From Alopecurus myosuroides (lineage: Eukaryota > Streptophyta > Magnoliopsida > Poales > Poaceae): a stretch of DNA of 64,000 bases. Shown here piece after piece: positions 27,454 to 62,740 of this stretch. Made by a program: the position numbers and the translations under genes. The DNA lies in the NCBI GenBank assembly GCA_028641055.1, contig CM054058.1, positions 238,500,187 through 238,564,186 on the forward strand, read 5' to 3'. Every line of letters begins with the position of its first letter. The stretch's first letter is position 1. The notes under the pieces were generated by a model. The model saw nothing but the letters and a program-made list of their open reading frames with translations, was not told the DNA's origin and did no database searches.

Positions 27454-28390
27454 GGCCTCCTTTGATTCAAAGGTTTTCCTATGGATTTCTGTAGGATTCA
27501 AACCCAATGGATTTTTTTCCTTCCAATTATATTTGATTCATGGGATTGTAACATGTAGGAACCAATCATATAGGAAGTCGACAATGTGTTTTCAAAGGAA
27601 ATGTAACATGAGCTCTGACTTCATTTTAAAAATCCTTCGTTGGAATCAAACAACCCTTGTGAGATTTCCTTTGATTCAAAGGTTTTCCTCAGGATTTCTG
27701 TAGGATTCAAACCCAATGGATATTTTTTCCTTCCAATTACATTTGATTCATGGGATTGTAACATGTAGGAACCAATCCTATAGAAAGTCGGCAATGTGTT
27801 TTCCAAGCAAATGTAACATGATCTCTGACTTCATTTTTGAAATCCTTCGTTGGAATCAAATAACACTTGTGAGATTTCCTTTGATTCAAAGGTTTTCCTA
27901 AGGATTTCTGTAGGATTCAAACCCAATGGATATTTTTTCCCTTCCAATTACATTTGATTCATGGGATGGTAACATGTAGGAACCAATCCTATAGGAATTC
28001 GGCAATGTGTTTTCAAAGGAAATGTAACATGAGCTCTGACTTCATTTTTGAAATCCTTCGTTGGAATCAAACAACCCTTGTGAGATTTCCTTTGATTCAA
28101 AGGTTTTTCTAAGGAATTCTGTAGGATTCAAACCCAATAGATTTTTTTTCCTTCCAATTACATTTGATTCATGGGATTGTAACATGTAGGAACCAATCCT
28201 ATAGGAAGTTGGCAATGTGTTTTCAAAGGAAATGTAACATGAGCTCTGACTTCATTTTTGAAATCCTTTGTTGGAATCAGACAACCCTTGTGCAATTTCC
28301 TTCGTGCATAGGATCCGGTTGGGCAGGGCATTCCATTCCTACGTAGTTCCTATTCCTTTGGTTTTTCTACCCTACGAGTCAAAGGAGGCC
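27454..28390. mobile_element. Tourist/Harbinger-like MITE swollen by internal tandem repeats
   Basis: Ends GGCCTCCTTTGATTCAAAGG and, inverted, GGCCTCCTTTGACTC, flanked by TCA (27451-27453) and TAA (28391-28393). This fits a slightly mutated three-base TTA/TAA duplication typical of PIF/Harbinger MITEs. The interior is almost entirely four tandem copies of a ~210-bp unit. Small plus-strand ORFs of 60-93 codons recur in the copies and are probably not genes. Confidence 0.65.
27461..28300 (+). repeat. Four tandem ~210-bp repeats
   Basis: Units begin TTTGATTCAAAGGTTTT at 27461, 27670, 27880 and 28091 (periods 209, 210, 211). They share 'GGATTTCTGTAGGATTCAAA' and 'GGGATTGTAACATGTAGGAA' with few differences, so the expansion is fairly recent relative to the MITE ends. 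Confidence 0.95.
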
Positions 28391-44439: not shown

Positions 44440-45737
44440 TGATATGTCATAAATGTATCCTTAATTTCTGATGTTCCATGTTGTATTTATGTTGTTTCCT
44501 ACATGTTTTCTATACACTTTATGTCATTTTTATCGATTTTCCGGACTAACCTATTGACAAGATGCCACAGAGCCAGTTCCCTGTTTTCTGTTGTTTTTTA
44601 CTTTCAGAAAACTTGTTCTCGAAATATTCTCGGAATTGGAAAATTCAAAGTCCGGAGGTCCTTGAATTCCCGAAGGTTCCATGGAGTCCCGAAGAGACCC
44701 GAAGGGGGGCCACAGGGGGGCACACCATAGGGCGGCGCGCCCCTCCTAGGCGCGCCATGGGGTGGTGTGGGGCCCCCAGGCCTCCACCGCCTTTGCCCTT
44801 TCGCCTATTTAAACCCCCTGACATATCAACCCTAAAAATATACCACTTTTTTCCTAGAAACACCAGAGGCCGCCGTCATCGTCATCCCGAGATCGGGAGG
44901 GTTCTGGAGCTCTCCCCGGCACCCTGTCGGGAGGGGAATTCATCACCGGAGGGGTCTACACGACCATGCCCTCCTTGGAAGTAATGCATGAGTAGTTCAT
45001 CCCTGGACTACGGGTCCATAGCAGTAGCTAGATGGTTGTTCTCTCCACTTTGTACCTCATGTTTAGATCTCGTGAGCTTCCCTACATGATCGAGATCATG
45101 TTTATGTAATGCTACATGTTGTGTTTGGTGGAATCTGATGAATGTTGAATCCTATGTCTTCTGATTATCAATCTATCATGTTATCTTCCTGCTTATGTTA
45201 TTTATGATCTTGCATGCTCTCTGTTATTAGTAGATGCTCTGGCCAAGTAGATGCTAGTAACTCCAACAGGGAGTATTTATGCCCGATAGTGGGTTCAGGC
45301 CTCCTTTGCATCTGTGCTCGAGTGACAGAAATGTGAAGGATGGAGGATGTGTTGTTTCCATTAGGGAGAAAACAACGGTGTTTAACTAGTTTACATTGTT
45401 TACGTTACACATTTTGCTTACTGCGATAATCTGTTGCTTGCAACTTAATACCCGATGTTTGTTCGGATGATATTCGGAGGGTGGATTATTAGACATAGAT
45501 GTAGTTGGATGACGGTCTATGTATTTTGTTGTAATGCCCGCATGAATCACATAGTTATATTTATGTCTTGCATATGCACTACGGTGCAGCCTTCATTTCT
45601 GTCAATTGCCCAGCTGTAATTTGTTCACCACACATGTTATTTATCTTTCACGGAGAGACACCACTAGTGAACTATGGACCCCGGTCCATTTTCTCATACT
45701 GATAATACACACACTGCTTTCACACTGCTTTCATACT
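44440..45737 (+). mobile_element. LTR, 'TGATACGT' family, diverged copy 3, interrupted by element A
   Basis: Starts TGATATGTCATAAATG and follows the 36840 LTR throughout ('CTAACCTATTGACAAGATGCC', 'ACCCCGGTCCATTTTC' near 45680). It is lost at 45738 where element A begins. The missing end would lie beyond the window. Confidence 0.7.
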
Positions 45738-46223
45738 TGATGGAGGGATGATAACCCGGTAGGCTAACGCCAAGGAGTAACTCGGCCCAAAGGACGCTGC
45801 GCAAGACCCGGCTTAGGATAAAGGAGCTTCTAGAAGGCCCAGGAACATAGGCCTCGTAGCCCGGATTGTGGGTTCCGGTAAGGAAGTTTAGGGTTAGTAA
45901 GCAGTGTCCGGGTAGGATTCAGAGTACGCCTTGGAGAGTAGGCCAGGGGGTTTGGATGTTATATAAGCCGGCCTCTAGGTTAGGGTAAAACAAGTTGTAT
46001 CGTAAGTAAGAACACAATCGCCGAATTGCGAGGTATCGAGTATCCATTGTGACACGAGAGTTGAGATAATATATTCAGATCGGAGACTCGGCGACTTGAT
46101 TGCCGGCTACCAGATCGCATATCACCATGGTTTCCTTTGAGCTAAACCCTCTCCCAAACACCAGAGTCGATTTGCCCCAAGACAAGTTACCCCGGTAACG
46201 TCTGCCGTGATTATCCCACGACA
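45738..46223 (+). mobile_element. 5' LTR of element A (Tat-type gypsy)
   Basis: TGATGGAGGGATGATAACCC to ...TTATCCCACGACA, 486 bp. TATATAA at 45960. Similar over its length to the 479-bp LTRs of element B, with many differences, so A and B are related subfamilies. PBS TTGGCGCCCACCGTGGGGCC follows at 46225. Confidence 0.88.
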
Positions 46224-48975
46224 GTTGGCGCCCACCGTGGGGCCTACGTCCAAGGGTGTTTACATCACGGGAGAAGCTCGGGAGAACATGAAGAACCTCG
46301 TCATCAGCGAGATCTACACCAACCCCGAAGGAGAGAAGATGGTGGACGATTTTGGCTGGGGGCCAGAGTCGGATCTGCTTGAATTCGGATCTGTCGTGAC
46401 AATCGGCCGGATCAACGTCTTCGTCGGCATGGTACATACGTCTGGTTCAATCCCTAACGATTTCGGACTTGATTCTGTGTCGGAGGAGGCCACCTGCGTT
46501 CAGTCTGATGGGGAGGAATCGGTCGGGACGATAGATCCGACAGAAGAGCCCACCACAAAGAGGGAACAGCCGGAGGAGCCGGCATGGACCCCGCGTGGCC
46601 GGGTTATGAGAGAAGATGACACCGAGTCTATCTTGCACCTGCTGGAGGACCGGTACGAGGAAGATAGCGATGATGAAGAAGAATACGAATCTGCACCAAG
46701 CATTGTGCGCCAGGTCGCAGTCTACACGGCCCCTGCAACCAATCTTAATCAGGGGAACGTGACCGAGGCCGCCGTTGGAGCGACGCAAGCATTGGCCCAG
46801 CAGCAAAATCCGGTTGACGGAAACCCGGTTCTGACCCGGGTGGACGGAGAATCGGCTTCAGTTACCAGCCATGCGGCGGATAGTGAGTTGCAGGCAAACA
46901 CGTTCGGATATCTGGCAAACCGGACGCCAGGGGCGGGTCCTTCAAATCCGCAACACCCGGCCCTGTTCAACAACAACCTGATCCTGGACCCCACCGTTCT
47001 GGCCACAGTCATAACCCCGGAAAACGCGGTGGAACATGTTAGGGATCTGGATGTAGCCCGTCGTGCATTGGAACAACAGAGAAGGCAAGTGGAAGCAGAA
47101 AAACAAGGGGTAGCTGCGCACCAGCGCGATCTGGATGCATTGGAGAATCGGCTCCGAGAAGAGACAACCAGGGTGCGTCAAAGGCACCAGACCAGATTAC
47201 CGGCAACGGGTGGAGTCATAAACCCGGCCACACTATTCATCACACCTCAGGATCAGCCGATTCCAGCGGCGAACCAAGGAACTGTACATCAACCCGCAAC
47301 TGGAGGAGCACAACCGGTAAACACGCAGGCCGGGTTACCCATATTACAGACTGGAGTTACTACCGGCAATACATTACCACCACCACCACCATCACGATTT
47401 CGCACGCCAGCAGGACATTACAACAACCCCATGGATAATGTGTACGCAGCAACACTCGCATTGAATCAAATCCCCGTGAGAGAGTCACCCCACGCAGAGG
47501 AGACCCGGCGGGCGATAGATCTATTGCGCACTGCGGTGGCACAACAAGTTAATTACCCGGATAACAGAAGTGGAATGCATGGGACACCGTATATCAGCCA
47601 GCAACGAGCCAATACCGGCAATATTCAGACAAGCTCAGCGCGATGGAGGGCAGAGCAGCAGCAAATGCCGCCTCCTCTCCGCGTTCAAGCAGTACCAGCG
47701 GCATCAGCAGCGCAAGCTATTGTGGACAGTTCCAGAGCCAGGAGAGCCGCGGCCGGGTCTGCGGTGCACGGACCAGCAACAGCGCCACGCCCAGCCGCAC
47801 CCCCCGCAGGATCGCACATATCCCGAGTAAGGCCAGTTCCGACTAATCTCGCTGGGCCTAAGTGCCTGTCGGATAACATCAGGGCTGAGCCTTACCCGGA
47901 CAAATTCAAGGAACCGGGTAAAGTAGTAAATTATGAGCCGACTATGGATCCAGAAACATGGTTGAGCAGTTATGAGATGGCTATGTCAATCCGCAACGCA
48001 TCTGAAAATCTTCAAGCCAAGTTCATGTACTTGATGATGTCAGAAGGAGCAGCAAAGTTGTGGTTCAATAACCTACCGGAAGGATCTATCAAGTCATGGG
48101 AGGATTTGAAAACTGCGTTTATCAAGCACTTTCATGGGACGTGCAGAAAACTGTTTACTATTGATGACTTAGAGCGGTGCGTCCAGAAAAAGGGAGAATC
48201 GGCGCGCAGCTGGGTGCGCCGAGTTATGGAGATACTTCACTCATCTACAGATATTCAGCCCAAGGATGTGTTACAAGCTATGGCAAAGACATGCAAGTAC
48301 ATACCTTTAGTGCAAAAGTTGACTCGCATGAAATCCAGTCGGAATGCTTCAGAGGTTACGATGGGAGAGCTAATGGACGCATGCAACAAACACACTGCAA
48401 CGGATACCACAGAAGAGGACGTCGATGACAAGAAAGCAAAAACAAATACATGCAATAATGGAAGAACCGGCAATGGATCTACGCCGGGTAACCATGGAGG
48501 TAACAATGGGAACAACCAGAACAAGCGCCCGTTCGAGGGGAATTCCGAGTTTGTCGCCAGCACAGAAGCCGGGTCTTCAAGACCCAGGGCAGAAGGAAAT
48601 TTCAATGGAGGAAACCAGAACGGAGGAAATTATCAAGGACCGCCAAGGCCGGGTAACAATTGGGATATCTTTAGAATGGCGTGCCCAAAGCAAAGCAGGA
48701 ACGGTAGGCCGGCTAATCACTCATTGGAGCAATGTGCGGACCTACAGAGATGGAAGAACGAGGAAGTAAACAAGGCCATGCGAGGTGCAGGTCGGGGAGG
48801 AGGACCGGGTCCGGGTGGAAACCCGGGCAACGGCCCACCCCCAGCCGGTAACCCGGCAGGCGGAAATCCGGGTAATAACCAGGGGGAGGTAGAGGTTTCC
48901 AAGCCAACCCCAAGTAATTGGGACAATACCACGTGCATACTACAGGAATTTCCAACAAGGATAAAAAGATACTGA
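46207..48975 (+). pseudogene. gag of element A, frameshifted before protease
   Basis: Open frame of 922 codons. The first conserved part reads through the LTR end and PBS ('IIPRQLAPTVGP'). A variable Pro/Gln/Ala-rich middle follows, then the capsid core ('WLSSYEMAMSIRNASENLQA', 20 aa, ~48 kb), then 'FRMACPKQSRNGRP..HSLEQC' and a Gly/Pro/Asn-rich hinge. Against the intact ORF of element B, one G is missing near 48890, so the last ~28 codons are out of frame and protease-RT continues in the other frame. A second one-base loss in the LTR disconnects the ATG at 46126. Such single shifts could be programmed, but B reads through without one, so decay is more likely. Confidence 0.8.
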
Positions 48976-50320
48976 AAAAGGCGGTAAACTTAGTTGCCTC
49001 AGCCGTTCCGAGATACCTGAGATGGTCGGAGCAGGACGTAACATGGAGCAAAAGGGATCACCCGGAAAGGATAGAACACCCGGGAGTCTTAGCATTGGTG
49101 GTTGCGCCACAGGTTAATGGTTATGAGTTGAAAAAGGTCTTAATGGACGGCGGTAGTAGCATCAACATCTTATATTGGGAAACCTTTCTACGCATGGGTC
49201 TCAAGGATTCCCAGCTACAGAAGAGTTCAACAGTTTTTCACGGGATAGTACCGGGTCACTCAGCGTGCCCCGAGGGAAAAATCACATTGGAGGTAGCTTT
49301 TGGAGAATCGAAGGACAATTTCCGGGTTGAGTGGCTCACCTTCGAGGTGGTCAAGTTGCGCAGCCCCTATCATGCGCTATTCGGAAGGCCGGCTTACGCT
49401 AAGTTCATGGCCAGGCCGTGTTATGTGTATCTACAGCTAAAAATACCAGGTCCCAAGCAGACCATCACCATACGTGGGAGCCGGGATATAGCGGCTGAGT
49501 GCGATGAAGGAGATGCGGCAATGGCCGAACAAGCTTGCAGAAAAGAGGAACTCAAATATTACCGGTCTCAAGTAGACCCGGATGACAGGACAACGTTAAA
49601 AAGGCCGAATATTGAAGATGAGAGAGCGAAGTTCAAGGCAGCGCAGGACACCAAGATGGTGGCTTTCGTCGAGGGTGATCCCTCTAAGAAATTTGCTATA
49701 GGATCTAACTTGGACAGCGAGCAGGAGAAAGCACTTGTGGAGTTCATTCGTTCGAATCAGGATGTGTTTGCCTGGACGCCCAGCGATATGCCGGGTATCC
49801 CTACAGAGCTGGCAGAGCACAGTTTGCACGTTGATCCCAAGTCCAGGCCTGTGAAGCAGGGCCTGAGAAAAATGAATGAAGAAAGAAGGAAGGCTATAGG
49901 AGAAGAAATTGCACGGCTGCTTACAGCCGGCTTTATCATGGAAGTATTTCACCCGGACTGGTTAGCAAACCCGGTTCTCGTGATGAAAAAGACCAATGAG
50001 TGGAGAATGTGCATTGATTATACAAGTCTCAACAAGCATTGCCCAAAGTATCCGTTTGCACTACCAAGGATAGATCAGATCATAGACGCAGTAGCTGGAA
50101 GTGACCTATTATGTTTCCTGGATGCATATTCCGGGTATCATCAGATCAAGCTCAAGAAGGAAGATTGGGAGAAAACATCGTTCATAACCCCTTTTGGGGC
50201 CTTTTGTTACAAGACCATGACATTCGGATTGAAGAACGCTGGCGCAACCTATCAACGGTGTATTCAGAAGTGCTTTGAGGACCAAATCGGACGCAATGTT
50301 CACGCATACGTGGATGATGT
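48918..50320 (+). CDS. Protease and N-terminal reverse transcriptase of element A (interrupted)
   Basis: Protease with catalytic 'LMDGGSSINIL' near 49140. Then RT: 'RPVKQGLRKMNEERRKAI', 'NPVLVMKKTNEWRMCIDYTS' (20 aa), 'FLDAYSGYHQIKL' (first catalytic Asp) and 'HAYVDDV' (catalytic pair), which ends exactly where element B starts. Coding continues in frame at 62741 after the GATGT duplication. Only the nested insertion and the gag frameshift break this part. It would supply proteolysis and reverse transcription for A, and possibly for relatives lacking RT. Confidence 0.88.
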
Positions 50321-50799
50321 TGACAGGGGGATGCTAACCCGGTAGGCCAAGCTCCAAGGAATAACCCGGCTCAAGGAATGATGTGCAGGATCCGGCTAAG
50401 GATAGGGAAACTTGTGAAGGCCCAAGCTTGTAGGCCCAATGACCCGGATTGTGGGTTACTGTAAAGGCAAGTTAGGGTTAGTGCGCCGTGTCCGGGTAGG
50501 ATTCAGGGTACGCCTTGTAGGACAAGCCAGGGGGTACGGGTGCTTTATAAACCGACCCCCGGAGGTAGTTTAGACAGAGATCTAAGAACCCTAGCAATAT
50601 CGTGTGATATCGAGTATCCAGTGTAAACCCTAAATCGAGTTATTGTATCGAGAATAGAGATCCGGCGACTTTGATTGCCGGCTGTCAGATCAAGTTGTAC
50701 CATGTCTTCTCTTGAGCTAAACCCTCTCCCGAACGCCTGTGTCGACTTGCCCCAAGATCAGTTACCCCTGGTAACATCTGCCGTGATTATCCCACGACA
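50321..50799 (+). mobile_element. 5' LTR of element B
   Basis: TGACAGGGGGATGC to CCACGACA. TATA-like TTTATAAA at 50544-50551. Differs from the 3' LTR only at 50672 (T; C at 62608) and 50706 (C; A at 62642). The gag ATG lies inside it at 50702. Confidence 0.95.
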
Positions 50800-53700
50800 G
50801 TTGGCGCCCACCGTGGGGCCTGCGTCCAAAGGTGTCTACATCACGGGAGAAGCTCGGAAGGGCATGGAGAATCTTGTCATCGGCGAGATCTACATCGACC
50901 ACGAAGGAGAAAAGGTGGTGGACGATTCCGGCTGGGGGCCGGAGTCGGATCACCTCGAAACCGGATCCGTCGTGACAATCGGCCGGATCAGCGTCTTCAT
51001 CGGTATGGTATGTGCTTCCAATTCGGTCCCTGACAACGTTGGATCTGATTCTATGCCAGGAAAAGCCACGTCTATCCGATCAGATGATGAAGAATCAACG
51101 GGAACGACATATCCGGCAGAAGAACCCATCGCGGAGTGGGAACAGCCGGAGGAGCCGGCATGGACCCCACGCGACTGGGTCCAAGGAGAAGATGACACCG
51201 GGTCTATCCTGGATCTACTGGAAAACCGGTATGAGGAGAACGGTGAGGAGGAACAGCCTGAATTTACACCGGATATCGCGCGCCGAGTTGCAGTTTATGC
51301 AGCCCCCGCGGCCAACCAAGGAAACACAGCCGCGGCATCAGTCGGGGCGGCTCAGGCAGTGGCCCAGCAACAGGGCGCGGTTAACGGAGACCCGGTCTTG
51401 ACCCGGGTCGATGGAGAGTCAGCATCGGTCACCAGTCGCGCAGCAGATGAGGAGCAACATGCCAACATGTTCGGGTTTCAAGCCAACCGGACACCAGGGG
51501 CGGGTCCCTCGAATCCGCGTCACCCGGCCCTGTTCGATAATAATTTGATTTTGGATCCTACAGTCCTCGCCGCGGTTATCACCCCAGAAAACGCGGCAGA
51601 GCGTGTTAGAGATCTGGACGTGGCTCGTCGTGCATTGGAACAGCAAAGAAGGCAAGTGGAAGCAGATAGACAGGGGATGGCCACCCGACGGCACGAGCTA
51701 GACGCGTTGGAAACCCGGCTTCGAGAGGAAACGTCCAGGATACATCAAAGGCACCACACCAGGTTGCCAGCAACGGGCGGGGTTATTAATCCGGCTAATT
51801 TATTCGTCACGCCTCAGGACCAACCGATACCAGTGGTGAACCAGGGAACCGCACCCCAACAGACGACAGCAGCGACACATCCGGCGAATGAACGGACCGG
51901 GTTACCCCCACCGCAAACTAGAGTCACAACCGGCAACGATCTACTGCCGCCGCCACCATCACGATTCCGCACGCCAGCCGGCCACTACAACAATCCTATG
52001 GAAAACGTATATGCGGCGACACTCGCGTTGAATCAAATACCTGTGGGAGAGTCGCCCCATGCAGAGAAGACTCGGCAAGCCATCGAGCTGTTGCACACTG
52101 CGGTGGCACAGCAAGCCAATTACCCGGATCACAGAAGCGGTATGCACGGGACGCCATACGTCAGCCAGCAGCAAGGGAATTTACAAACGAGTTCAGCGCG
52201 GCGGAGGGAAGAGCAGCAGCAAATGCCGCCTCCTCCCCGCGCTCAGGCAGCATCAGCAGCACAGGCCGTCGTGGACAGTTCTAGGGCTCGGAGGGCCGCG
52301 GCCGGGTCTGCAGCGCATGGACCTCCCGCAGCACCGCGCCCAGACACGCCCCCCGCGGCATCACACGTTTCTAGAGCAAGGCCGGCTTCAATCATTCTTG
52401 CGGGACCCAAGTGTCTCTCGGACAATATTAGAGCTGAACCTTACCCGGAAAAGTTCAAAGAGCCAGGGAAAGTAGTGAATTATGAGCCAACCATGGATCC
52501 CGAAACATGGCTAAGCAGTTACGAGATGGCAATGTCAATCCGCAACGCGTCCGAGAACCTCCAAGCCAAGTTCATGTATCTGATGATGTCGGAAGGAGCA
52601 GCAAAATTGTGGTTCACCAATCTACCAGAGGGATCGATCAAGTCTTGGGAGGAATTGAAGACCGCGTTTATCAAGCACTTTCACGGGACCTGCAGGAAAT
52701 TATTCACTATTGATGATCTAGAGCGATGCGTCCAGAAGAAGGGAGAATCGGCGCGCAGTTGGGTGCGCCGGGTTATGGAGATACTTCACTCATCCACGGA
52801 TATCCAGCCCACGGATGCACTACAGGCCATGGCAAAAACATGCAAGTATATACCTTTAGTGCAAAAGTTAACTCGCATGAAGTCCAGTCGAAATGCGTCG
52901 GAAGTCACAATGGGAGAATTGATGGATGCGTGCAACAAACACGCTGCGACAGATACTACAGAAGAAGAAGCTGATGACAAGAAGACAAAAGCAAACACAA
53001 GCGGTAATGGAAGAACCGGCAACGGAACAGCGTCAGGAAACAATGGAAATAGCCAGAACAAGCGTCCCTTCGAAGGAGGCTCCGAGTTTGTCGCCAACAC
53101 CGAAGCCGGGTCTTCAAGGCCAAGAGCAGAAGGAAATTTCAACGGAGGTAACCACCATGGAGGAAACTATCAAGGTCCACCAAGGCCGGGTAACAATTGG
53201 GACATATTCAGGATGGCATGTCCGAAGCACAGCAGGAATGGCAGGCCAGCTAACCACTCCCTAGAACAGTGCGCCGATTTACAAAGATGGAAAAATGAGG
53301 AAGTGCACAGAGCTATGCGAGGTGCAGGGCGGGGAGGAGGACCGGGTCCAGGGGCAAACCCGGGCAACGGCCCACCCCCAGCTGGTAACCCGGCGGCTGG
53401 AAATCAAGGTAATAACCAAGGGGGGGCAGGAGGCTTCCAGGCTAACCCCAAACAATTGGGTCAATATCATGTGCATACCACAGGAGGATCTAACAAGGAC
53501 AAAAAGATACTGAAGCAAGCAGTCAACTCAGTTTCGTTAGCCGTTCCGAGATACTTGAGATGGTCAGAACAGGAGGTAACATGGAGCAGAAGGGATCACC
53601 CGGAAAGAGTGGAACACCCAGGAGTCTTGGCACTAGTAGTCGCACCGCAAGTTAATGGGTACGAACTAAAGAAGGTTTTAATGGATGGTGGAAGCAGCAT

Positions 53701-54394
53701 CAATATACTGTATTGGGAAACCTTCCTACGCATGGGTCTCAAGGAATCTCAACTGCAAAAAAGCTCGACAGTTTTTCATGGGATAGTGCCGGGTCATTCA
53801 GCATGCCCCGAGGGAAAAATCGCATTGGAGGTAGCTTTCGGAGAATCAAAGGATAACTATCGAATTGAGTGGCTCACCTTTGAGGTAGTGAAATTACGCA
53901 GCCCCTATCACGCGCTGTTTGGAAGGCCGGCTTATGCCAAATTCATGGCTAGGCCGTGTTACGTATATCTACAGCTAAAAATCCCGGGTCCCAAGAAGAC
54001 CATTACCATACATGGAAATCGAGATATAGCAGCTGAATGTGACGAAGGAGACGCAGCAATGGCCGAGCAGGCCTGTAGAAAAGAAGAACTCAAGCACTAC
54101 CGATCTCAAGCAGACCCGGAGGATATAGCCACATCAAAAAGGCCGAGTACTGAAGGCGAAAGAACAAAATCCAAGGCAACGCAAGATGCTAAAATGGTGG
54201 CCTTAATCGAGGATAATTCCCCCAAGCGGCCCGCTGTAAAGGAAGAAGCCACACGGCCGCTTACAACCAGCCAGGTCATTGGAACACCCCACCCGGGTTG
54301 GCTAGCAAACCCGGTACTCATCAGGAAAAGATCCAACATATGGAGAATGTGCATTGGTCAAGCCAGACCGGGACCAGCGCTTATGAGGAACTAA
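50702..54394 (+). CDS. gag-protease polyprotein of element B (1230 aa, intact)
   Basis: A single frame from the first ATG after the LTR TATA box. Residues 1-33 come from the LTR, then the PBS is translated. The N-terminal ~550 residues are acidic then Pro/Gln/Ala-rich with a coiled-coil-like 'LEQQRRQVEADRQG'. Capsid core ~590-715 ('LQAKFMYLMMSEGAAKLWF'). A C/H cluster ~838-855 ('CPKHSRNGRPANHSLEQC') takes the place of a canonical zinc knuckle. Gly/Pro/Asn hinge, then retroviral-type aspartic protease ~980-1110 with 'LMDGGSS'. Residues ~1180-1230 contain a shortened, altered piece of RT start ('GWLANPVLIRK..WRMCIG'), then a stop. Compared with A, ~75 residues are deleted there and everything downstream is gone. 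Structural proteins and self-processing are preserved; replication enzymes are not. Confidence 0.92.
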   Translation: MSSLELNPLPNACVDLPQDQLPLVTSAVIIPRQLAPTVGPASKGVYITGEARKGMENLVIGEIYIDHEGEKVVDDSGWGPESDHLETGSVVTIGRISVFIGMVCASNSVPDNVGSDSMPGKATSIRSDDEESTGTTYPAEEPIAEWEQPEEPAWTPRDWVQGEDDTGSILDLLENRYEENGEEEQPEFTPDIARRVAVYAAPAANQGNTAAASVGAAQAVAQQQGAVNGDPVLTRVDGESASVTSRAADEEQHANMFGFQANRTPGAGPSNPRHPALFDNNLILDPTVLAAVITPENAAERVRDLDVARRALEQQRRQVEADRQGMATRRHELDALETRLREETSRIHQRHHTRLPATGGVINPANLFVTPQDQPIPVVNQGTAPQQTTAATHPANERTGLPPPQTRVTTGNDLLPPPPSRFRTPAGHYNNPMENVYAATLALNQIPVGESPHAEKTRQAIELLHTAVAQQANYPDHRSGMHGTPYVSQQQGNLQTSSARRREEQQQMPPPPRAQAASAAQAVVDSSRARRAAAGSAAHGPPAAPRPDTPPAASHVSRARPASIILAGPKCLSDNIRAEPYPEKFKEPGKVVNYEPTMDPETWLSSYEMAMSIRNASENLQAKFMYLMMSEGAAKLWFTNLPEGSIKSWEELKTAFIKHFHGTCRKLFTIDDLERCVQKKGESARSWVRRVMEILHSSTDIQPTDALQAMAKTCKYIPLVQKLTRMKSSRNASEVTMGELMDACNKHAATDTTEEEADDKKTKANTSGNGRTGNGTASGNNGNSQNKRPFEGGSEFVANTEAGSSRPRAEGNFNGGNHHGGNYQGPPRPGNNWDIFRMACPKHSRNGRPANHSLEQCADLQRWKNEEVHRAMRGAGRGGGPGPGANPGNGPPPAGNPAAGNQGNNQGGAGGFQANPKQLGQYHVHTTGGSNKDKKILKQAVNSVSLAVPRYLRWSEQEVTWSRRDHPERVEHPGVLALVVAPQVNGYELKKVLMDGGSSINILYWETFLRMGLKESQLQKSSTVFHGIVPGHSACPEGKIALEVAFGESKDNYRIEWLTFEVVKLRSPYHALFGRPAYAKFMARPCYVYLQLKIPGPKKTITIHGNRDIAAECDEGDAAMAEQACRKEELKHYRSQADPEDIATSKRPSTEGERTKSKATQDAKMVALIEDNSPKRPAVKEEATRPLTTSQVIGTPHPGWLANPVLIRKRSNIWRMCIGQARPGPALMRN
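50801..50820 (+). other. Primer binding site of element B
   Basis: TTGGCGCCCACCGTGGGGCC, one base after the LTR end, identical to that of element A. It is also translated as part of the gag ORF (QLAPTVGP). Confidence 0.85.
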
Positions 54395-55452
54395 ACAATG
54401 TAACGGGCAGCAGGTTTCAGACGCGCTCTTTTCCTACCCAGGGTACCTAAGGGGACTGGAAGGTTTTTAATGAGGCGGCCTGCTGATCCAAAATTTCTAG
54501 TATCAATAAAGAGATGGTTATCAAGTCCTATATCATTACACCCTGATTACAAGTAAGTAGTATCCCTGCGACATCGATAATTCAGTATCATCAAAAGCAT
54601 CGATTGCATGTAGGTCTTGGGGGTTGGTTGCCCAGGTAACCAACCACTAACCCGAATGACCCGGCATAGATAGCTATAAGTTATAAGGGCCGATTACTCG
54701 CAAACGAGCACGGCTGCAATCTTATGACTGGGCAAAGAAGCCAACTTTTCTTGACTTATCTTACTTAAGCTTGATGTGACTCGCACTAAAGTGGCATGAT
54801 TCGTTCGCTTACGATTACAATCAGCCATGGAGCCCAATGGGACTTGCCTGACACTGTTCTCGTATGGATGTAACAACATGGTATCCACGCGAAAGCCGGC
54901 TTACAGTACAAGATAGTTAAAAGGGTCATCTAAACCACAAGTTTATGCAGAGTACAAGGCTAAAAGCCGGAAACTCAACAATTATCAAGCATAACTTCAG
55001 TACTTACACGGAATGGCTTTAGGTTTGCGACTCGGTAAAAAATAATTTGTTCTCTCAGAAAGGCCACACCCCCATTACTCGAACTTTGGGTCATGGGGGC
55101 TGGGGGACTTCGAAACAGAAACAAACTACTTGGCTATCGCAGTTCGAAAAACCTCACCATCCGAGTCTTGGGGACTTAAAGAAAAAGCCCACGTATTAAA
55201 ACTCCTGGTCTCGGAAAACCGAGTCTTACAAAGGGAGGTAAAAAGAAAGCTGGGTATCAAGAACAAGTTCAAAAGAACAGACAAAATAGCACGATTATCA
55301 AAGGGCAGGGAAAGCCGCAAAAATATGTCACCGAATAGAAGTACATTACAAGTTATGGCATCGGTATCAGAAGTGCACAAGCGCACCATTGGCAGAATAA
55401 ATAGTTCAAATGAAAAGGTCCCACGTGATTAAGGTATTATGACATCATCACC
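54395..55452 (+). other. Gap between gag-protease and the convergent antisense gene
   Basis: No convincing gene; a 100-codon plus ORF (55130-55432) has no recognised domain. Contains G-rich polypurine-like text (GGGGGCTGGGGGACTT at about 55094-55109). Plus-strand gag-protease and the minus-strand gene converge here, so their transcripts probably overlap. Confidence 0.5.
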
Positions 55453-58400
55453 CTACTCGGCCTCCTGAGTGCGGTCTTCCGGGTCTTGCTCCTGGGCCTG
55501 CTGCTTAGCTTTCCTGGCAGAACCACCCGGACTCACCGCGCCAGGGCGGATGGGTGGAAGGACGGACGGTGTAGAGGCGGATGGCCCTGATTTTAACTCG
55601 GCCTCCCTCTTCGCGGTTGCCTCCTTCTTTTTGGCCGAGTGATCAGCCCACTTCTCCAAGAGGTCCAAGGGCGGGGGTGCTTCCTCTGTGATAACTTTGC
55701 CATCGGCGTCATACGCAGCCATTAGCGTATTCAGGTCCAAGCTATCGGCTAAAGAGGTAGCCGAGGGGCGCACTGCTGACTGAATGGCCTTGAAGTCCTT
55801 AGGCGTAAATTTGGCACCATCCGCCTTAAACTCGGGAAACCCGGATATTATCTTCGCCGGGTCAAGCTTCGGAAAGTAGGCTTTGGCCAAGGTCAATGCC
55901 CGGGTTATTCCAATTCGGCAGGACGAACGTTTCCAAAGTTCAATCCAGCCAGGCACAGTGGAGCAGGCTTGGACAAGATTCTCTTCACCCGGATAGGCTT
56001 CTGTGGGCCAATGTATGGCGTCCAATATAAATTTTGTGCCGGCAAAGAAAGTCCGGAGGACAGTCTTCAGGGTCCTAGCCTTGGCAATAGTATCTTCCTC
56101 TGGAGGTGCAAGGTTGGCACCTGCAGTTGAAACAGAAGCAAGAAGGCATCAGTAACCCAGAGTGGTGCATAACAAGAAGCATGAAGTTAGTCGACAGACA
56201 AAAACTTACTCAGTAAGATCTGGTAAGTGTCGGTGATTTGATCCGATAAATTCTTCAAGTCGGTCCGAGCGGTGTGGCACTTCTTCTTATATTTGGAAAC
56301 ATCCTTCTTCAAAGCTTCCATGTCATCCTCAAGGATTTCCCGTCGTTTTATCTCGGCAAGAAGACGTTGTTCGGTCTTCAGTAAAGTTTCATCAGACCGA
56401 GTTATCTGTGCCTGTAAGTAGAAAGGAGGGCAAGCATTAGTGGGATGTTATGATAAGATAAATTTGGCGTGAAGTACCAAGCATAACTTTTGCAAGTCAT
56501 ACTCGGAACTTGGGGACTAGATATGCAATATGAGATGACAAGCGCTTTTACCTGGTGCTCTGCAGCCATGCGCTCTAAAATATCGCCCTCTGAAGCCTTC
56601 ATGGTGAGGAGCGTGTTCATCAATTGATCAAAAGTATCTTTACCCGTATCAGAAGACCCGGGGCCTTGGGAATTCCGAGAAGAGGTTTTCTTCTTAGAAG
56701 GAGGTGGAACCCGGGTCATTTGTGCAATGGAATCCGACACTCCTTCGGCACCGAAGGTTGTGTCTTTCTTCTTCTTGCTCGCATGGGAAGCAATTGGATA
56801 CTCGGTCTCTTGGGCGTCCGGTTTAATCGGCGAGGTTTGCTTTTCATCGCCAGACACGACAGTAGTCTTATCGGCCGGGCTCCCCTGACCCGGGCCCTCG
56901 TCTTCCATGCCCTCTTGGTCGCTAACGACGACCGTGGCCCTGTAAATGTTATCAAGAAATAGTTAAAATACGCGGTCAGGAAAGGGTGGTGAAGTGTGGA
57001 AGAGCGTCCGGAAGGGGATCTTACCCGGTGTTCACCGCGAAGTCACAAGGAAACCCGTCATCAGACTCGGGAGAGGCTGAAAATTGTCAGGTTAGATGTC
57101 ATATAAGAATAGTTCAAGGGGAATGTGCCGGCCGAGAAAAGATAGAATAATTACCAGCTCGCCGAATGGGGGTCGAAGAAATACCCGGGTTGATGACGTT
57201 GTAACCCGGGTTATTTCGAGTTGACCTACGCTTGATCATGGGCGACTCCTTCAAGAATGGCCAGTGGAATAATGTCAAAATAACTCAGGTATATAATTAA
57301 GGTGACGCGAATTGAATGCGAGGAGGGGATATGAAACCTTGGAAGGGGCCTCTTGAGCTTTTCTTTTGGATCCGGTTTTGGTCGCCGGTTCCGGTTCGTC
57401 CTCGTCGCTGGCAGATTCTACCTTGCCATCCGAGTTTTCTTCCTCATCATCCTCTTGTTCTGAAATATCATCAAAGTTATGGTTGAAAATGAAGGGGTTA
57501 TGACGAGTTCAAAGGAACCAAATAGAATTCGAAGGGTACCTTCATCCGAGTGAACGGCCTCTTGCTCCTCTGGACTTTCGGAGCTAGGGGAGGCGTTGAT
57601 TTTCCAAAAGTCGTCATTAGCCTGAACGGTGTTAATACACAGGTTACCAACTTTATCAAGTGGAAAGAATGAAAGTAAAGGCGTTAGAGTCGGACTTTTA
57701 CCTTAGGGGAGGGGTTTTCAAGCGTGAAGGGCTCTAACCCGGATATGTTCCGGATTACCTCGAGCTTTTCCGTCAAAAAACCTTTGATGGTTTTATGGGT
57801 ATCGCCAGGTGCGAAGATGTTATCGGAGTATCGGAGCGGATCAGAAGGTTCTCCTGAATACTCGCACATCAACTTGGTGCGGATGGAGTTGGGTTGAATC
57901 CTAAAATCGACCCAGGTCTTTACTAGATTGAGCCCGATGAGGCCCTGGGCTGTAAGAGTAGCAATTTTGGCTAGCAAGGGTTGAATTGCCTCCCTATCCG
58001 AGTTAGGGGCGAAGGCGCTAAACTTATCGGAAATATCAAGAAGACCCTCCGAGTAACCCGGCAGTTTCTTTTGGCCGGGTGGGGAAGTGTCCTGGCAGTA
58101 GAAGTACGAGAGCTGCCAATGCTTGACATGGGAATTGAGGGTGAGGGGTGGCATTAGAGAGTTTTTGCGGCGTTGGATCGAAACCCCGCCGCAAGTGAGA
58201 AGCGCCCCATCACCGCTTTCGCGGCATGGTTTGCATTGAAAAAGCTCAATGAAAAGAGCTAGACTTGGCGGAGTGCACAAGTAGGATTCGGAGAGGACGA
58301 TAAAATGGGAAATATTTAGCACAGAGTTGGGTCCGATGTCGAAGACACGAAGGCCGTAGTGGCTAAGTATGTCACGGAAAAAGGGGTGACCCGGTGGTCG

Positions 58401-58631
58401 AAAACCCCGGGTCACGTGATCCACGAAACAGATTACCTCATCTTTGGTAGGGGTGGGCCGGGTCTCCTTACCCGGTACCCTCCATTGGATATTTTCCTGA
58501 GGAGGAAGAATTCCCAGTTCCACCAGCTCCTCCAACTTGGCCTTTGTGACCATAGACCGCGCCCAGTTGGCGGAAATGGTGTTGGTGGCTTTGGCCTTGG
58601 TTGGGGTCTTCCCCTGTTTCTTGGGAGCCAT
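55453..58631 (-). CDS. Antisense 8-exon gene inside element B (putative 'gypsy-type transposon'/Transposase_28-like protein)
   Basis: Coding exons in transcription order: 57702-58631, 57540-57621, 57338-57459, 57155-57248, 57025-57076, 56552-56939, 56210-56411, 55453-56120. All seven introns are GT-AG and the phases join to 845 aa with no stop. Exon 1 (310 aa) has a basic N-terminus (MAPKKQGKTPTKAKA), then a globular region ('FVDHVTRGFRPPGHPFFRDI', 20 aa; 'LSHYGLRVFDIGPNSVLNIS') like the PF04195 'putative gypsy type transposon' domain known from grass antisense ORFs. Exons 2-6 are acidic/Ser-rich with nuclear-localisation-like KKKK/KKK clusters. Exon 7 is a coiled coil ('LLAEIKRREILEDDMEALKK', 20 aa). 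Exon 8 has a folded-looking helical part, then a Lys/Glu/Gln tail. Role unknown; a nuclear or RNA-binding function is a guess. It sits opposite to the element's own transcript. Confidence 0.82.
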
Positions 58632-59159
58632 ATGGCTGACCTGCAGAGCACAAGGTAAGAAGGAAATTAAGACATGAAAGTTGCGAGCCGGCTAAGTATA
58701 GGCCGGACAGCATTGAGGTATGAAAAGTTACGGGAGATCCGGGTGTTAACATGCAGAGCAAAGTTTGAAAGTTTCCGGGTATCAGGCATTGTGGTGAAAT
58801 TTATGGGATCTAAATGTTGAAGGAGCCTTTTGGATACAATGGATGGCGGCTTAAGTTCCAGACGTGAATAAAAGTAACTGAAAAGGAATGGTCTAGCCGG
58901 GTGATTGATGCGAAGGCGGAAAATTTGGGTGGTTCGAGCCTAGATTGGAAGTTTCATTTTTGGATTTGTGGCAAGAATAATGATTGTGGGTAGTAGGGGA
59001 GCGGATTGGAGCATGCGCTTTGTCTTGAGTGCGAGCTAGAAGAGTTTATGGGTATTCTAATTCGGCCTAGTCAAGAAATCCGAGGCGGACCGATCTGGAT
59101 CTAATCTGAGGAAAAAATCAAAGGTTGAGAGGGCAAATTGATAGGTGCAAAAGATTTAC

Positions 59160-59400
59160 CGGAGGAGATCTGAGGGAAGCCTTGCGGAGGCAGATGGCGC
59201 AGGCTTGGTGTCCCTTCGCGGTTCTTGGTGGGCCGGATGAGGATTCGCCGGCGGATCTTGGCGGCGGCGCGGGGCGAATGGTGGCGGAGCGTAATCTCCG
59301 GGCGATGGGTTCCGGTGACGAGCGCGGGATTTCCGTGGTGGCGCTCAGGGAGAAGGAGAGCTCAGAGGGAGAAAGGAATGGAATGGAGGAAATGAGCCGT
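59160..59400 (-). other. Predicted 5'UTR exon of the antisense gene
   Basis: On the minus strand it runs from ~59400 (about 30 nt past a TATA box) to a donor CCG|GTAAAT at 59160. The acceptor CTCTGCAG|GTCAGCC at 58640 lies nine bases before the start ATG. The exon is CT-rich (CTCCATTCCATTCC) and contains no minus-strand ATG. The 59125-59403 plus ORF is its shadow. Confidence 0.55.
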
Positions 59401-59426
59401 TAGGGTTCGGGTCACTCCTAAGGGGC

Positions 59427-59435
59427 TTTTTTATA
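59427..59435 (-). promoter_or_regulatory. TATA box of the antisense gene
   Basis: The minus strand reads CACTATAAAAAAGCCCC. Its position ~30 bp before a pyrimidine-rich leader and ~390 bp from the 3' LTR suggests a dedicated internal promoter pointing away from the LTR. Confidence 0.6.
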
Positions 59436-59989
59436 GTGCAAATGGATAAGCTCGGTTTGGTGAGTGGAAGCCGAGAATGGAGGGGGTAAACGGCTATTTA
59501 TTTAAAGTTTCTGCGAGATGTGCGCCAAGTATTGAGCAAAGCATCCGGATAAAAGGAAGAAGGGGATTCGTCCCGTGATGACGGGATTGGTTATCGAGCA
59601 TAGGATCTTGGAGTTATTATTATGGTTTGGACCCAGAAGTTTGAACCAAGGTGTTTGGAGGGAAAGCTGAGGTTATTGCATGGCCGCCAAGGAGCAAGGC
59701 CTAGCTGAATATTAAAACATCTTAACCCGATCTTCATATACCCGTATGATCGATATCTTTGCATGGAATAGCAAGCGCTTCAAGGAGATCCGTGAAGCCC
59801 AGGCTATTCTGGGGACTACTGACAGGGGGATGCTAACCCGGTAGGCCAAGCTCCAAGGAATAACCCGGCTCAAGGAATGATGTGCAGGATCCGGCTAAGG
59901 ATAGGGAAACTTGTGAAGGCCCAAGCTTGTAGGCCCAATGACCCGGATTGTGGGTTACTGTAAAGGCAAGTTAGGGTTAGTGCGCCGTG

Positions 59990-62421
59990 TGAAAGTGCAT
60001 GGTGCCCCATATGTGGTTTTGGTAATTACTGACAATTCCTATGGACTAACGTTTGCATTGAATTATCCTTGTAGTTCTTGTTCATAGGAAATAATGGAGT
60101 TCATGTGTTGAACTCTATTAGCTTCCTTGATGGCCATTGTTATATTCAAGGATTTATATGAAGAATGGTCATGGTTTGAGTTGAGGTTATTGCTAGTGTG
60201 TCTTGAAGAAAAGTATTATGTTATCCTTCATGGTTATCTTCAAGACATCATCATTTGAAGTGAGAAGAAAAGATACAAGGTTGATCAAGCTAGTGATCAA
60301 CACACAAAGCTACACGATGTACCAAGTGGGATTGTGTATCTCATGGTATGGTAAGAAATTGTCAATATAGCTTTGTGATCTAACCCATATATGTGTGTGT
60401 GGCATCTCTATGTGTGGTTAGGTATCTTTCCATGGGCATGAACAAAAAGGTAGATTTCATATAGCCCATGGTCTATGTCATCGTCGAGCGATGTTCGTCA
60501 CCTAGCTTGACGTGGAAGCTCAAGTGAAGCATCTAGAAGAAATCCTATGCTTGAACCTTTCCATCCATATGGAGATTATGGTCAAGTGAAGATGTTCATG
60601 TGATAAGCTCTCTCATATTAGCTTATGGGGGAGCAATTCACAATCTTCACGAAGCGAAGCGCAATCAAGAAAGGTGGTCCAACTTGAGGTGATTAAGATC
60701 GCCATCATCTAGCTCAATTGGATTGCACAAGGCAAAGGTATGACTTATATAGGGTTTCTATTTTACCGGTCTCATTATGCTAGTTGGGAGACCTGATTAT
60801 AGGATAGATAACCGTACTATCAAGAGGGGCTCTTGAATGCATATCTTGATCGTATCTATCGTAGAGAGCTCAAACCTTTGCATACTTGGCATCATCCTTC
60901 TTGGTTCTTATTTGGGTTTTCTACATGTAAGGTTTTAGATCTTTTCATGTTCTTCATGTCAAGCTCAAGTTCATCAAAAATGGATTTCGTATGAAAAACT
61001 TATCGCATTTTTGTTGTTGAAGGTTTCTACCGGTTGTCCTTTATTGATAGGCCAAACCTTTCATCATTTGGTTTTATATTCCCATTTGTACTATGATGTT
61101 TCTCTGCATATTCTTGTAGTGCTCGTCGTTGCGATTTCAACGAGCCCAAGAACATCGAAAACGGAGTCCGGATGCAAAAGTTATGACCGTTTTCATATAG
61201 GGTGTTCTGCAGTTTTTTCCACCAGCGGAGGCTCCGGTGGTAGCTCCGCCGGAAACCCCTTCGGTTTGAAAGTGGCGGAGGTTCCGGTGAAACCACCGGA
61301 GGCTCCGGTGGTTGGGGCATTTTTTCAGCCATTTTGATGTCCTAACTCATCCGGGGGGCGGAGGTTCCGGTGGTTTCACCGGAGGTTCCGCCCCTGCGCG
61401 AATTTTCCTCCAACGGTTGGATATTTGGGTGACCTATTTAAGGGGCCTTCTTCCCCAATGGTTCCCCAACCTTTTGGGCAAGTTTGACCTCCATTGTTGA
61501 CCTCCAAAAGCTTGCTCTCTCTCAATCCCTCCAATGATTCTTGCTTCCACTTGAGGGAAAAGAGAGAGGAGATCTAGATCTACCACTTCACCAATCAATC
61601 CCTCCTCTTTGTGAGGGGAATCTATTGGATCTAGATCTAGGGATTCATTTGTTGTTTTCCTTGTTCTTCCTCCTTCCTCCCTCCATAGCATTAGTTGCTT
61701 TGGTGGGATTTGGGAGAGAAGTTCTTGACCACTTTATGTGTTCTTGCCATTGCATTAGGTGCATCGGTTTGAGTTCCCCACGAGATTCGTGAAAGAGAAG
61801 TTCGTGAGCTTGTTACTCTTGGGTGCTTGGTCACCGGAGAGATTGTTCCTCTTGGGTGTATTGAGCACCCTAGACGGTTAGTGCTTGGGGCTTCCACCTT
61901 GTTGCAAGAAGCTTCGTTGAGAGCCTCCAATTGAGTTGTGGAGATAGCCTCAACCTCGTGTAAGGTTTGGTCAACGCCTTCAAGTCGACCTCATAGTGGA
62001 AACGAGCATCTCCCTCACCGGAGAAGCTCAAGGAGAATAAGGTGTGCACATCCGTGCTATTGAGGAGCGCCTAGGTGGCTCCCCACCTCTCCAACGAAGA
62101 CGTACTTCCCTTGGGAAGGAACTTCGGTAATCACACCGGTGTCTCCTTGTGCTTCGGTTATCTCTATACTCTAGCTCGTTACTTATGCATTTACCTTTGT
62201 GATAGCCATCGTGCTTGAAGTCATCTATCTTGCTATCTCATAGTTGTATATCATGCCTAGCATAAGTTGTTGGTGCACATAGGTAAACCTAGCTTGCATA
62301 GGTTTTGTGCTTGATAAATTAAACGCTAGTTTTATTCCGCATTTACTCAAGCCTAAACCGTAATTATTTTAAAGCGCCTATTCACCCCCCCCCCCCTCTA
62401 GGCGGCATCCTTCTACTTTCA
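59990..62421 (+). mobile_element. Solo LTR (2432 bp), SIRE/Maximus-like copia type (tentative)
   Basis: TGAAAGTGCATGGTGCCCC to ...GGCATCCTTCTACTTTCA, flanked by CCGTG at 59985-59989 and 62422-62426. The C-rich end ('TTCACCCCCCC' then 'CTCTAGGCGGCATCC') is like LTR ends that precede a TTGGTATCAGAGC PBS in copia elements of this type. No PBS, pol or second LTR follows, so the internal region was lost by LTR-LTR recombination. Small ORFs inside (61011-61337, 61541-61792) are not considered genes. It is the youngest insertion in the nest. Confidence 0.82.
61206..61395 (+). repeat. CCGGAGG(C/T)TCCGG repeat cluster in the solo LTR
   Basis: At least six copies of a palindromic 'GGAGG(C/T)TCCGGTGG / CCACCGGAGG' motif within ~190 bp, in both orientations. 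It could form strong hairpins. Confidence 0.8.
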
Positions 62422-62740
62422 CCGTGTCCGGGTAGGATTCAGGGTACGCCTTGTAGGACAAGCCAGGGGGTACGGGTGCTTTATAAACCGACCCCCGGAG
62501 GTAGTTTAGACAGAGATCTAAGAACCCTAGCAATATCGTGTGATATCGAGTATCCAGTGTAAACCCTAAATCGAGTTATTGTATCGAGAATAGAGATCCG
62601 GCGACTTCGATTGCCGGCTGTCAGATCAAGTTGTACCATGTATTCTCTTGAGCTAAACCCTCTCCCGAACGCCTGTGTCGACTTGCCCCAAGATCAGTTA
62701 CCCCTGGTAACATCTGCCGTGATTATCCCACGACAGATGT

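Follow-up and report, generated by a model that had tools for sequence, protein, structure and literature searches.

A conserved antisense gene with eight predicted coding exons in a young Retand-type retrotransposon without reverse transcriptase in Alopecurus myosuroides

Retand elements are Ty3/gypsy long terminal repeat (LTR) retrotransposons in which an additional open reading frame (ORF) in antisense orientation is well known. In the accessible parts of a recent survey, this ORF, termed TRP28 and always antisense, was missing from only two of 63 Retand clusters (Vicient 2025, PMC11963269). It is recorded there in nearly all monocot and eudicot clusters and has no similarity outside transposable elements; DNA binding has been predicted for it and a regulatory role suggested. 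The region between POL and the 3' LTR (POL-3'LTR) is given as 2,933 to about 6,560 bp. The Transposase_28 domain was found in 23% of Retand elements according to the accessible part of another study (PMC6317226), and in maize the gene23 of Grande is described as antisense, with its own promoter and a nuclear protein (excerpts of PMC7264820). Here we analyzed a stretch of 64,000 nucleotides from Alopecurus myosuroides (contig CM054058.1, positions 238,500,187 to 238,564,186), hereafter the window, which holds a young Retand-type element that lacks reverse transcriptase (RT) and carries an antisense gene of this type with eight predicted coding exons.

Non-autonomous Retand families that retain the antisense ORF are already in print. 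In Table 1 of the survey, as far as that source was available, each row with NO for GAG, AP, RH or INT has YES for TRP28 (15 rows by our own count; the paper's text gives ten clusters), and in the A. myosuroides clusters 2 and 3b GAG, AP and TRP28 are present while RH and INT are absent (PMC11963269). A preliminary description of the window, made from the letters of the sequence, had rightly stated that antisense extra ORFs are known in the Tat lineage; its surprise that an RT-less family should keep such a gene is lowered because of these published cases. Since the survey took intact RT domains as its starting point, a family without RT could not have been found by it. Its accessible text does not contain the word 'intron', has 'splic' and 'exon' in the reference list only, and lists ORFs. 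The word 'intron' is likewise absent from the accessible review text of PMC7264820, which calls for study of antisense and spliced transcripts. The literature searched, from which subscription papers were largely missing, yielded no account of an antisense gene with several exons, so that the absence of such an account from print is unproved.

Exon-intron structure of the antisense gene

The gene lies on the minus strand, where eight coding exons between 58631 and 55453 join into 845 codons and a stop with consistent phases. All seven coding introns are GT-AG, have lengths of 78-140 nt and a G+C content of 0.36-0.45, versus 0.44-0.60 in the exons. Exon 1 (57702-58631) carries the Transposase_28/TRP28 domain, with a PF04195 match at amino acids 67-134 (E 7e-21). 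It is followed by exons 2 (57540-57621), 3 (57338-57459), 4 (57155-57248), 5 (57025-57076), 6 (56552-56939) and 7 (56210-56411) and by exon 8 with the stop codon (55453-56120). Upstream, on the same strand, are a 519-bp intron in the 5' untranslated region (5'UTR; 58641-59159), which changes at a neutral rate, and a pyrimidine-rich 5'UTR leader exon of 244 nt without an ATG (59160-59403), whose predicted start is placed by the position of the TATA box. The TATA box, CACTATAAAAAAG (59426-59438), is identical in 19 of 20 copies of the family, and the remaining copy, L054, has a gap of 1 nt. The eight-exon model, the upstream TATA box and 5'UTR intron (read as 59438-59426 and 59159-58641) and the PF04195 domain that the preliminary description had proposed looking for were thus all recovered.

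Openness of the frame is poor evidence for such a gene. We compared the longest open chains in 60 shuffles with those of the observed region at three levels of splice-site stringency. With no demand on splice sites, the shuffles reached a mean of 817 aa and a maximum of 952, and the observed region gave 903 (905 on the other strand); an open frame with matching phases was therefore rejected as evidence for a gene. When thresholds were set close to the weakest observed sites, the observed chain was 795 aa versus 235 +/- 83 in the shuffles (maximum 451) and 239 on the other strand. Strict thresholds gave 697 aa versus 124 +/- 37 (maximum 234) and 69 on the other strand. Splice-site quality, not openness, marks the gene off from chance. 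The score alone leaves introns 2-3 ambiguous, with models of 817, 836 or 845 aa. The 845-aa model is favored because the homologue described below keeps even the weak intron 3 sites, and the two shorter models are disfavored by its conserved intron 2-3 sites.

That homologue belongs to a related, RT-bearing element in which the window element is nested (the enclosing element), and it was aligned in two segments, L079 and L080. Both ends of introns 1-3 (L079) and 5-7 (L080) could be aligned with GT and AG kept, and for intron 4 the acceptor could be aligned. Seen from the exons, the donor of exon 1, both ends of exons 2 and 3 and the 5' end of exon 4 are conserved in L079, the donor of exon 4 lies elsewhere in L080, and both ends of exons 5, 6 and 7 and the acceptor of exon 8 are conserved in L080. 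The protein matches of L080 to exons 6, 7 and 8 start or stop at junctions 6 and 7 or a few residues from them. As judged from these alignments, the predicted exon-intron structure is shown to be common to the window gene and the RT-bearing enclosing element, with both ends of six of the seven introns and the acceptor of the seventh.

More distant relatives gave a similar picture at some junctions. L008, in the host genome, has 32% amino acid identity over amino acids 29-309 and intron 1 at the same site (by eye). Ten database relatives (P0001-P0010) were found, including sequences from Alopecurus aequalis, Lolium multiflorum and wheat. P0001 and P0003 continue across junction 1, and P0001 also across junctions 2 and 7. 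P0004 and P0005 are apparently unspliced and end 4 and 8 residues past junction 1, where V (GT) comes first and a stop codon is assumed at their ends; P0001 and P0004 share 95-96% identity as far as junction 1 and diverge exactly from there. Scans of a viral collection and a genome contig collection confirmed no relatives. The host genome also holds distant TRP28 families (L001-L007; 26-38% amino acid identity over parts). Separately, eight of the best 150 PF04195 matches lie within 2 Mb at G000:C1:541.7-543.7 Mb, several with long open frames; L002, L003, L005, L006 and L007 in this group have a TRP28 type unlike the window gene and may form a local gene cluster.

Copies of the family and constraint on the protein

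We searched the host assembly (3.57 Gb, seven contigs of 352-782 Mb) with a 901-bp probe. Of 4,476 first-look candidates 40 were scored, and all were 99-100% identical to the probe. The truncation junction of RT was the same in 20 of 20 copies within the fetched 901 bases, of which L060, L064 and L078 match a part that includes the junction. The family has thus multiplied although its RT is cut off. We also compared the gene region in the best 20 of the 39 other copies. The ATG, eight exons and all splice sites are intact in 17 of them; in L040 nearly all of exon 1 is missing, and L043 and L054 each contain a single stop. Over 54400-58300, 24 of 29 copies (20 common to both sets) have no stops, exon indels or splice-site changes. 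Three copies found with a spacer probe, at G000:C4:361089423, 361098912 and 361108401, are spaced exactly 9,489 bp apart, which resembles a tandem array of elements with common LTRs.

With L040 dropped, the ratio of nonsynonymous to synonymous change (omega) between the window gene and 18 close copies was 0.16-0.36, and it was 0.13 for L056 (G000:C2:134958365-134963365). L056 is a recombinant in which exons 1-3, the 5'UTR and the promoter belong to a diverged subfamily (about 8-21% diverged from the window), exons 4-8 resemble the RT-less family (about 0-4% diverged), and the hybrid antisense gene has kept its frame and all splice sites. The comparison with the window ends at 59990, where the window holds an insertion. 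In the diverged part (exons 1-3), rates for transversions, transitions and CpG transitions were 0.013, 0.025 and 0.027 at nonsynonymous sites, 0.060, 0.169 and 0.30 at synonymous sites and 0.036, 0.155 and 0.40 in introns 1-2. The corresponding rates were 0.042, 0.145 and 0.368 in the 5'UTR intron, 0.022, 0.071 and 0.022 in the leader and 0.024, 0.079 and 0.235 in the promoter. Over all classes, nonsynonymous change was five to eleven times below that of silent sites (P = 2e-27). Exons 1-3 were free of indels; intron 2 had one and the 5'UTR intron three. In this comparison the predicted introns are shown to change like silent sites and the predicted protein to be constrained, with the leader and promoter in between: relative to the neutral rate, change is about half as fast in the promoter stretch and about half as fast or slower in the leader. 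Against the enclosing element, the omega of exon 1 was 0.079 (160 codons) and 0.070 (121 codons).

Within the family, shared variants and singletons differed. Over the whole gene in 19 copies, omega was 0.12 for shared variants and 0.61 for singletons (P = 0.001), and for transitions outside CpG it was 0.22 and 1.01. In a test of 28 copies over 55453-58298 (L011 and L027 dropped), the nonsynonymous to synonymous counts were 10:19 among shared variants and 100:50 among singletons (P = 0.0016), and 8:11 and 79:35 outside CpG (P = 0.035). It is likely that selection acted within the RT-less family itself. The preliminary description had held that ratios near 1 across copies would speak against a functional gene; the ratios found here point the other way, and the part of that claim that concerns the RT-less copies stands as likely only.

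The host element and its surroundings

The antisense gene lies between the POL remnant and the 3' LTR of the window element, whose LTRs, primer-binding-site-like sequence and gag-protease frame were placed on the plus strand. The 5' LTR of 479 bp (TGACAG...ACGACA; 50321-50799) was identified from LTR pairing and a target-site duplication (TSD), and 2 bp downstream of it is TGGCGCCCACCGTGGGG (50802-50818), which we take to be primer-binding-site-like. An open frame for gag and protease (50800-54394; PF03732 match) ends in a truncated start of RT, and a comparison with the enclosing element places the RT remnant at about 54252-54356; the protease label is our reading of the motif DGGSS. No further frame for RT, RNase H or integrase follows, and no sense ORF in 54395-59819 exceeds 128 aa. 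A spacer (54395-55452, delimited from the sequence) separates the gag-protease frame from the 3' end of the antisense gene, and the POL-3'LTR region (54395-59819) is long, at 5,425 bp. The 3' LTR, recognized by its pairing, is split into a left (59820-59989) and a right part (62427-62735) by an insertion of 2,432 bp (59990-62421; TGAAAG...CTTTCA; TSD CCGTG), presumably the solo LTR of a Copia element. The two LTRs have 2 differences over 479 positions, and the element is flanked by the 5-bp TSD GATGT (50316-50320 and 62736-62740). At a rate of 1.3e-8 per site and year, its insertion is about 0.16 million years old. The claim of the preliminary description that the gene sits antisense in a young non-autonomous Tat/Retand-type element is confirmed. 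The family is a Retand-type Ty3/gypsy family without RT, RNase H and integrase that has nevertheless multiplied.

The enclosing element (45737-50320, and from 62741 on, seen to 64000) was cut in its RT gene, at the YVDD motif, by the insertion of the window element, and its RT has a PF00078 match. It has gag and protease-RT in two frames and an LTR of about 491 bp, like Alopecurus cluster 5c in the accessible part of PMC11963269. The two elements share 78% identity across LTR, gag and protease; omega is 0.09 in gag and 0.05 in protease, rough values because dS is >1. Elsewhere in the window are a tandem array of four 210-bp units (27458-28302) and, on the plus strand, a 662-aa open frame (10870-12858) that by eye resembles a LINE reverse transcriptase.

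Explanations and comparison with known systems

The structure and the constraint described above almost certainly reflect a conserved, spliced gene under selection. That chance open stretches were stitched together into a false gene model has a negligible probability. Shuffled sequence does give unconstrained chains of such length, but the splice sites are conserved in a diverged homologue and the constraint is specific to codons, with neutral introns, and we judged this artefact refuted. Our preferred explanation, held with moderate confidence and drawn from sequence comparison, is that the gene is an antisense accessory gene (a TRP28 or aORF gene) of a multiplied RT-less Retand-type family, that its product would be a nuclear protein and that its introns would be kept by the antisense position. 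RNA polymerase II would start at the internal TATA box of the DNA copy, the minus-strand transcript would be spliced, and the protein would work in the nucleus. The introns could survive reverse transcription because the antisense splicing signals are absent from the sense genomic RNA, and with the gene antisense, the protein would be made only from integrated DNA. Such elements probably benefit from the protein in some way. By eye, the translation contains the stretches KRKAQ, KKKK and KRR, putatively like nuclear localization signals (NLS), an acidic and basic NLS-like linker and a coiled-coil-like stretch, and the C-terminal region is conserved. We give even chances to the protein acting in the nucleus on the DNA or chromatin of the element. 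In the least certain step, the protein would bind these and support the transcription, silencing escape or integration of its own element, partly in cis. A cis preference of the product is suggested tentatively: if selection in the RT-less copies holds, the product should be partly cis-acting, since other copies would otherwise compensate, and the same argument applies to the retained gag.

Several points weigh against this explanation. The copies compared are the best-scoring ones and are thus biased toward young and intact copies. The antisense homologue of the enclosing element is decayed, with stops and a frame change, its intron 4 donor is displaced, and dS against it is saturated (1.6 and 2.1). 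L056 is a recombinant whose diverged half may derive from an RT-bearing family, so that the strongest contrast may reflect selection outside the RT-less family. The test within the family is a small one and no more than suggestive, and its shared to single counts in introns 1-7 (4:59) and the spacer (11:81) are like those of nonsynonymous sites. The structure models are too weak for any functional reading: mean AlphaFold pLDDT was 58.8 for exon 1 and 45.4 for exon 8, a Foldseek search with the exon 1 model gave six matches (best E 6.7), and a profile search against PDB sequences returned 15 weak matches (E at least 0.08), mostly to vinculin.

These points bear most on the possibility, which we regard as unlikely, that the gene is selected in RT-bearing relatives only and that RT-less copies keep it through youth and recombinational resupply. 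The recombinant L056 with its hybrid gene, the near-identical LTRs of the window copy, the small within-family contrast and the intron and spacer controls, which do not behave like silent sites, would all agree with it. The single truncation junction argues otherwise, since with a junction common to all 20 copies their shared variants are mostly younger than the truncation, and variants common to copies favor silent changes. That the antisense RNA rather than the protein matters, by pairing with sense RNA and tuning copy number or silencing, is very improbable. Regulation through double-stranded RNA by such transcripts has been raised (accessible text of PMC7264820), but RNA pairing would not produce the constraint observed, which tracks codon positions and is absent from introns and silent sites, and as a sole function antisense RNA is disfavored. 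We give an equally low probability to capture of an intron-bearing host gene, the alternative offered in the preliminary description. The exon-intron anatomy is ordinary and plant-like and other TRP28 families exist in the genome, but the enclosing family carries the same gene, which is therefore not absent from sister families, and the ORF is found in nearly all Retand clusters and shows no similarity outside transposable elements (PMC11963269, as accessible). The alternative finds no support, and with a recent capture excluded, any capture would have to be ancient.

An extension of the accessory-gene explanation is doubtful. The RT-less family could provide gag-protease and the GAG-less cluster 7 family RT and integrase, as two parts of one retrotransposon. 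The spliced antisense gene would then be the only complete coding unit required in both parts, and its product would be cis-acting. In the accessible part of PMC11963269, cluster 7 has AP, RH and INT and no GAG, whereas the window family has gag-AP and no RT. The two are likened by lengths only: clusters 7a-c have LTRs of 477-481 and POL-3'LTR regions of 5,427-5,433 bp, and the window family has 479 and 5,425.

The antisense TRP28 ORF and its retention by non-autonomous families are known; the conserved exon-intron structure and the evidence for selection were not encountered in the literature examined. If the antisense ORFs are conserved, selected multi-exon genes, single-ORF surveys have seen exon 1 of a larger gene, and coiled-coil-type ORFs reported beside TRP28 may be later exons. 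Because its gene sits in a family that has multiplied with no RT of its own, the window element allows a direct test of whether the product acts in cis. It would also be a clean example of introns surviving retrotransposition by antisense orientation. As far as the sources were accessible, Ogre and EVADE are likewise plant LTR retrotransposons with introns (PMC6317226, PMC12786077), and clusters 2 and 3b resemble the window family in being non-autonomous with TRP28 retained (PMC11963269). The window gene is antisense like gene23 of Grande, with its own promoter and a nuclear product predicted here, and a protein that acts in the nucleus on element DNA or chromatin would fit the published nuclear location of the gene23 product (PMC7264820, in part).

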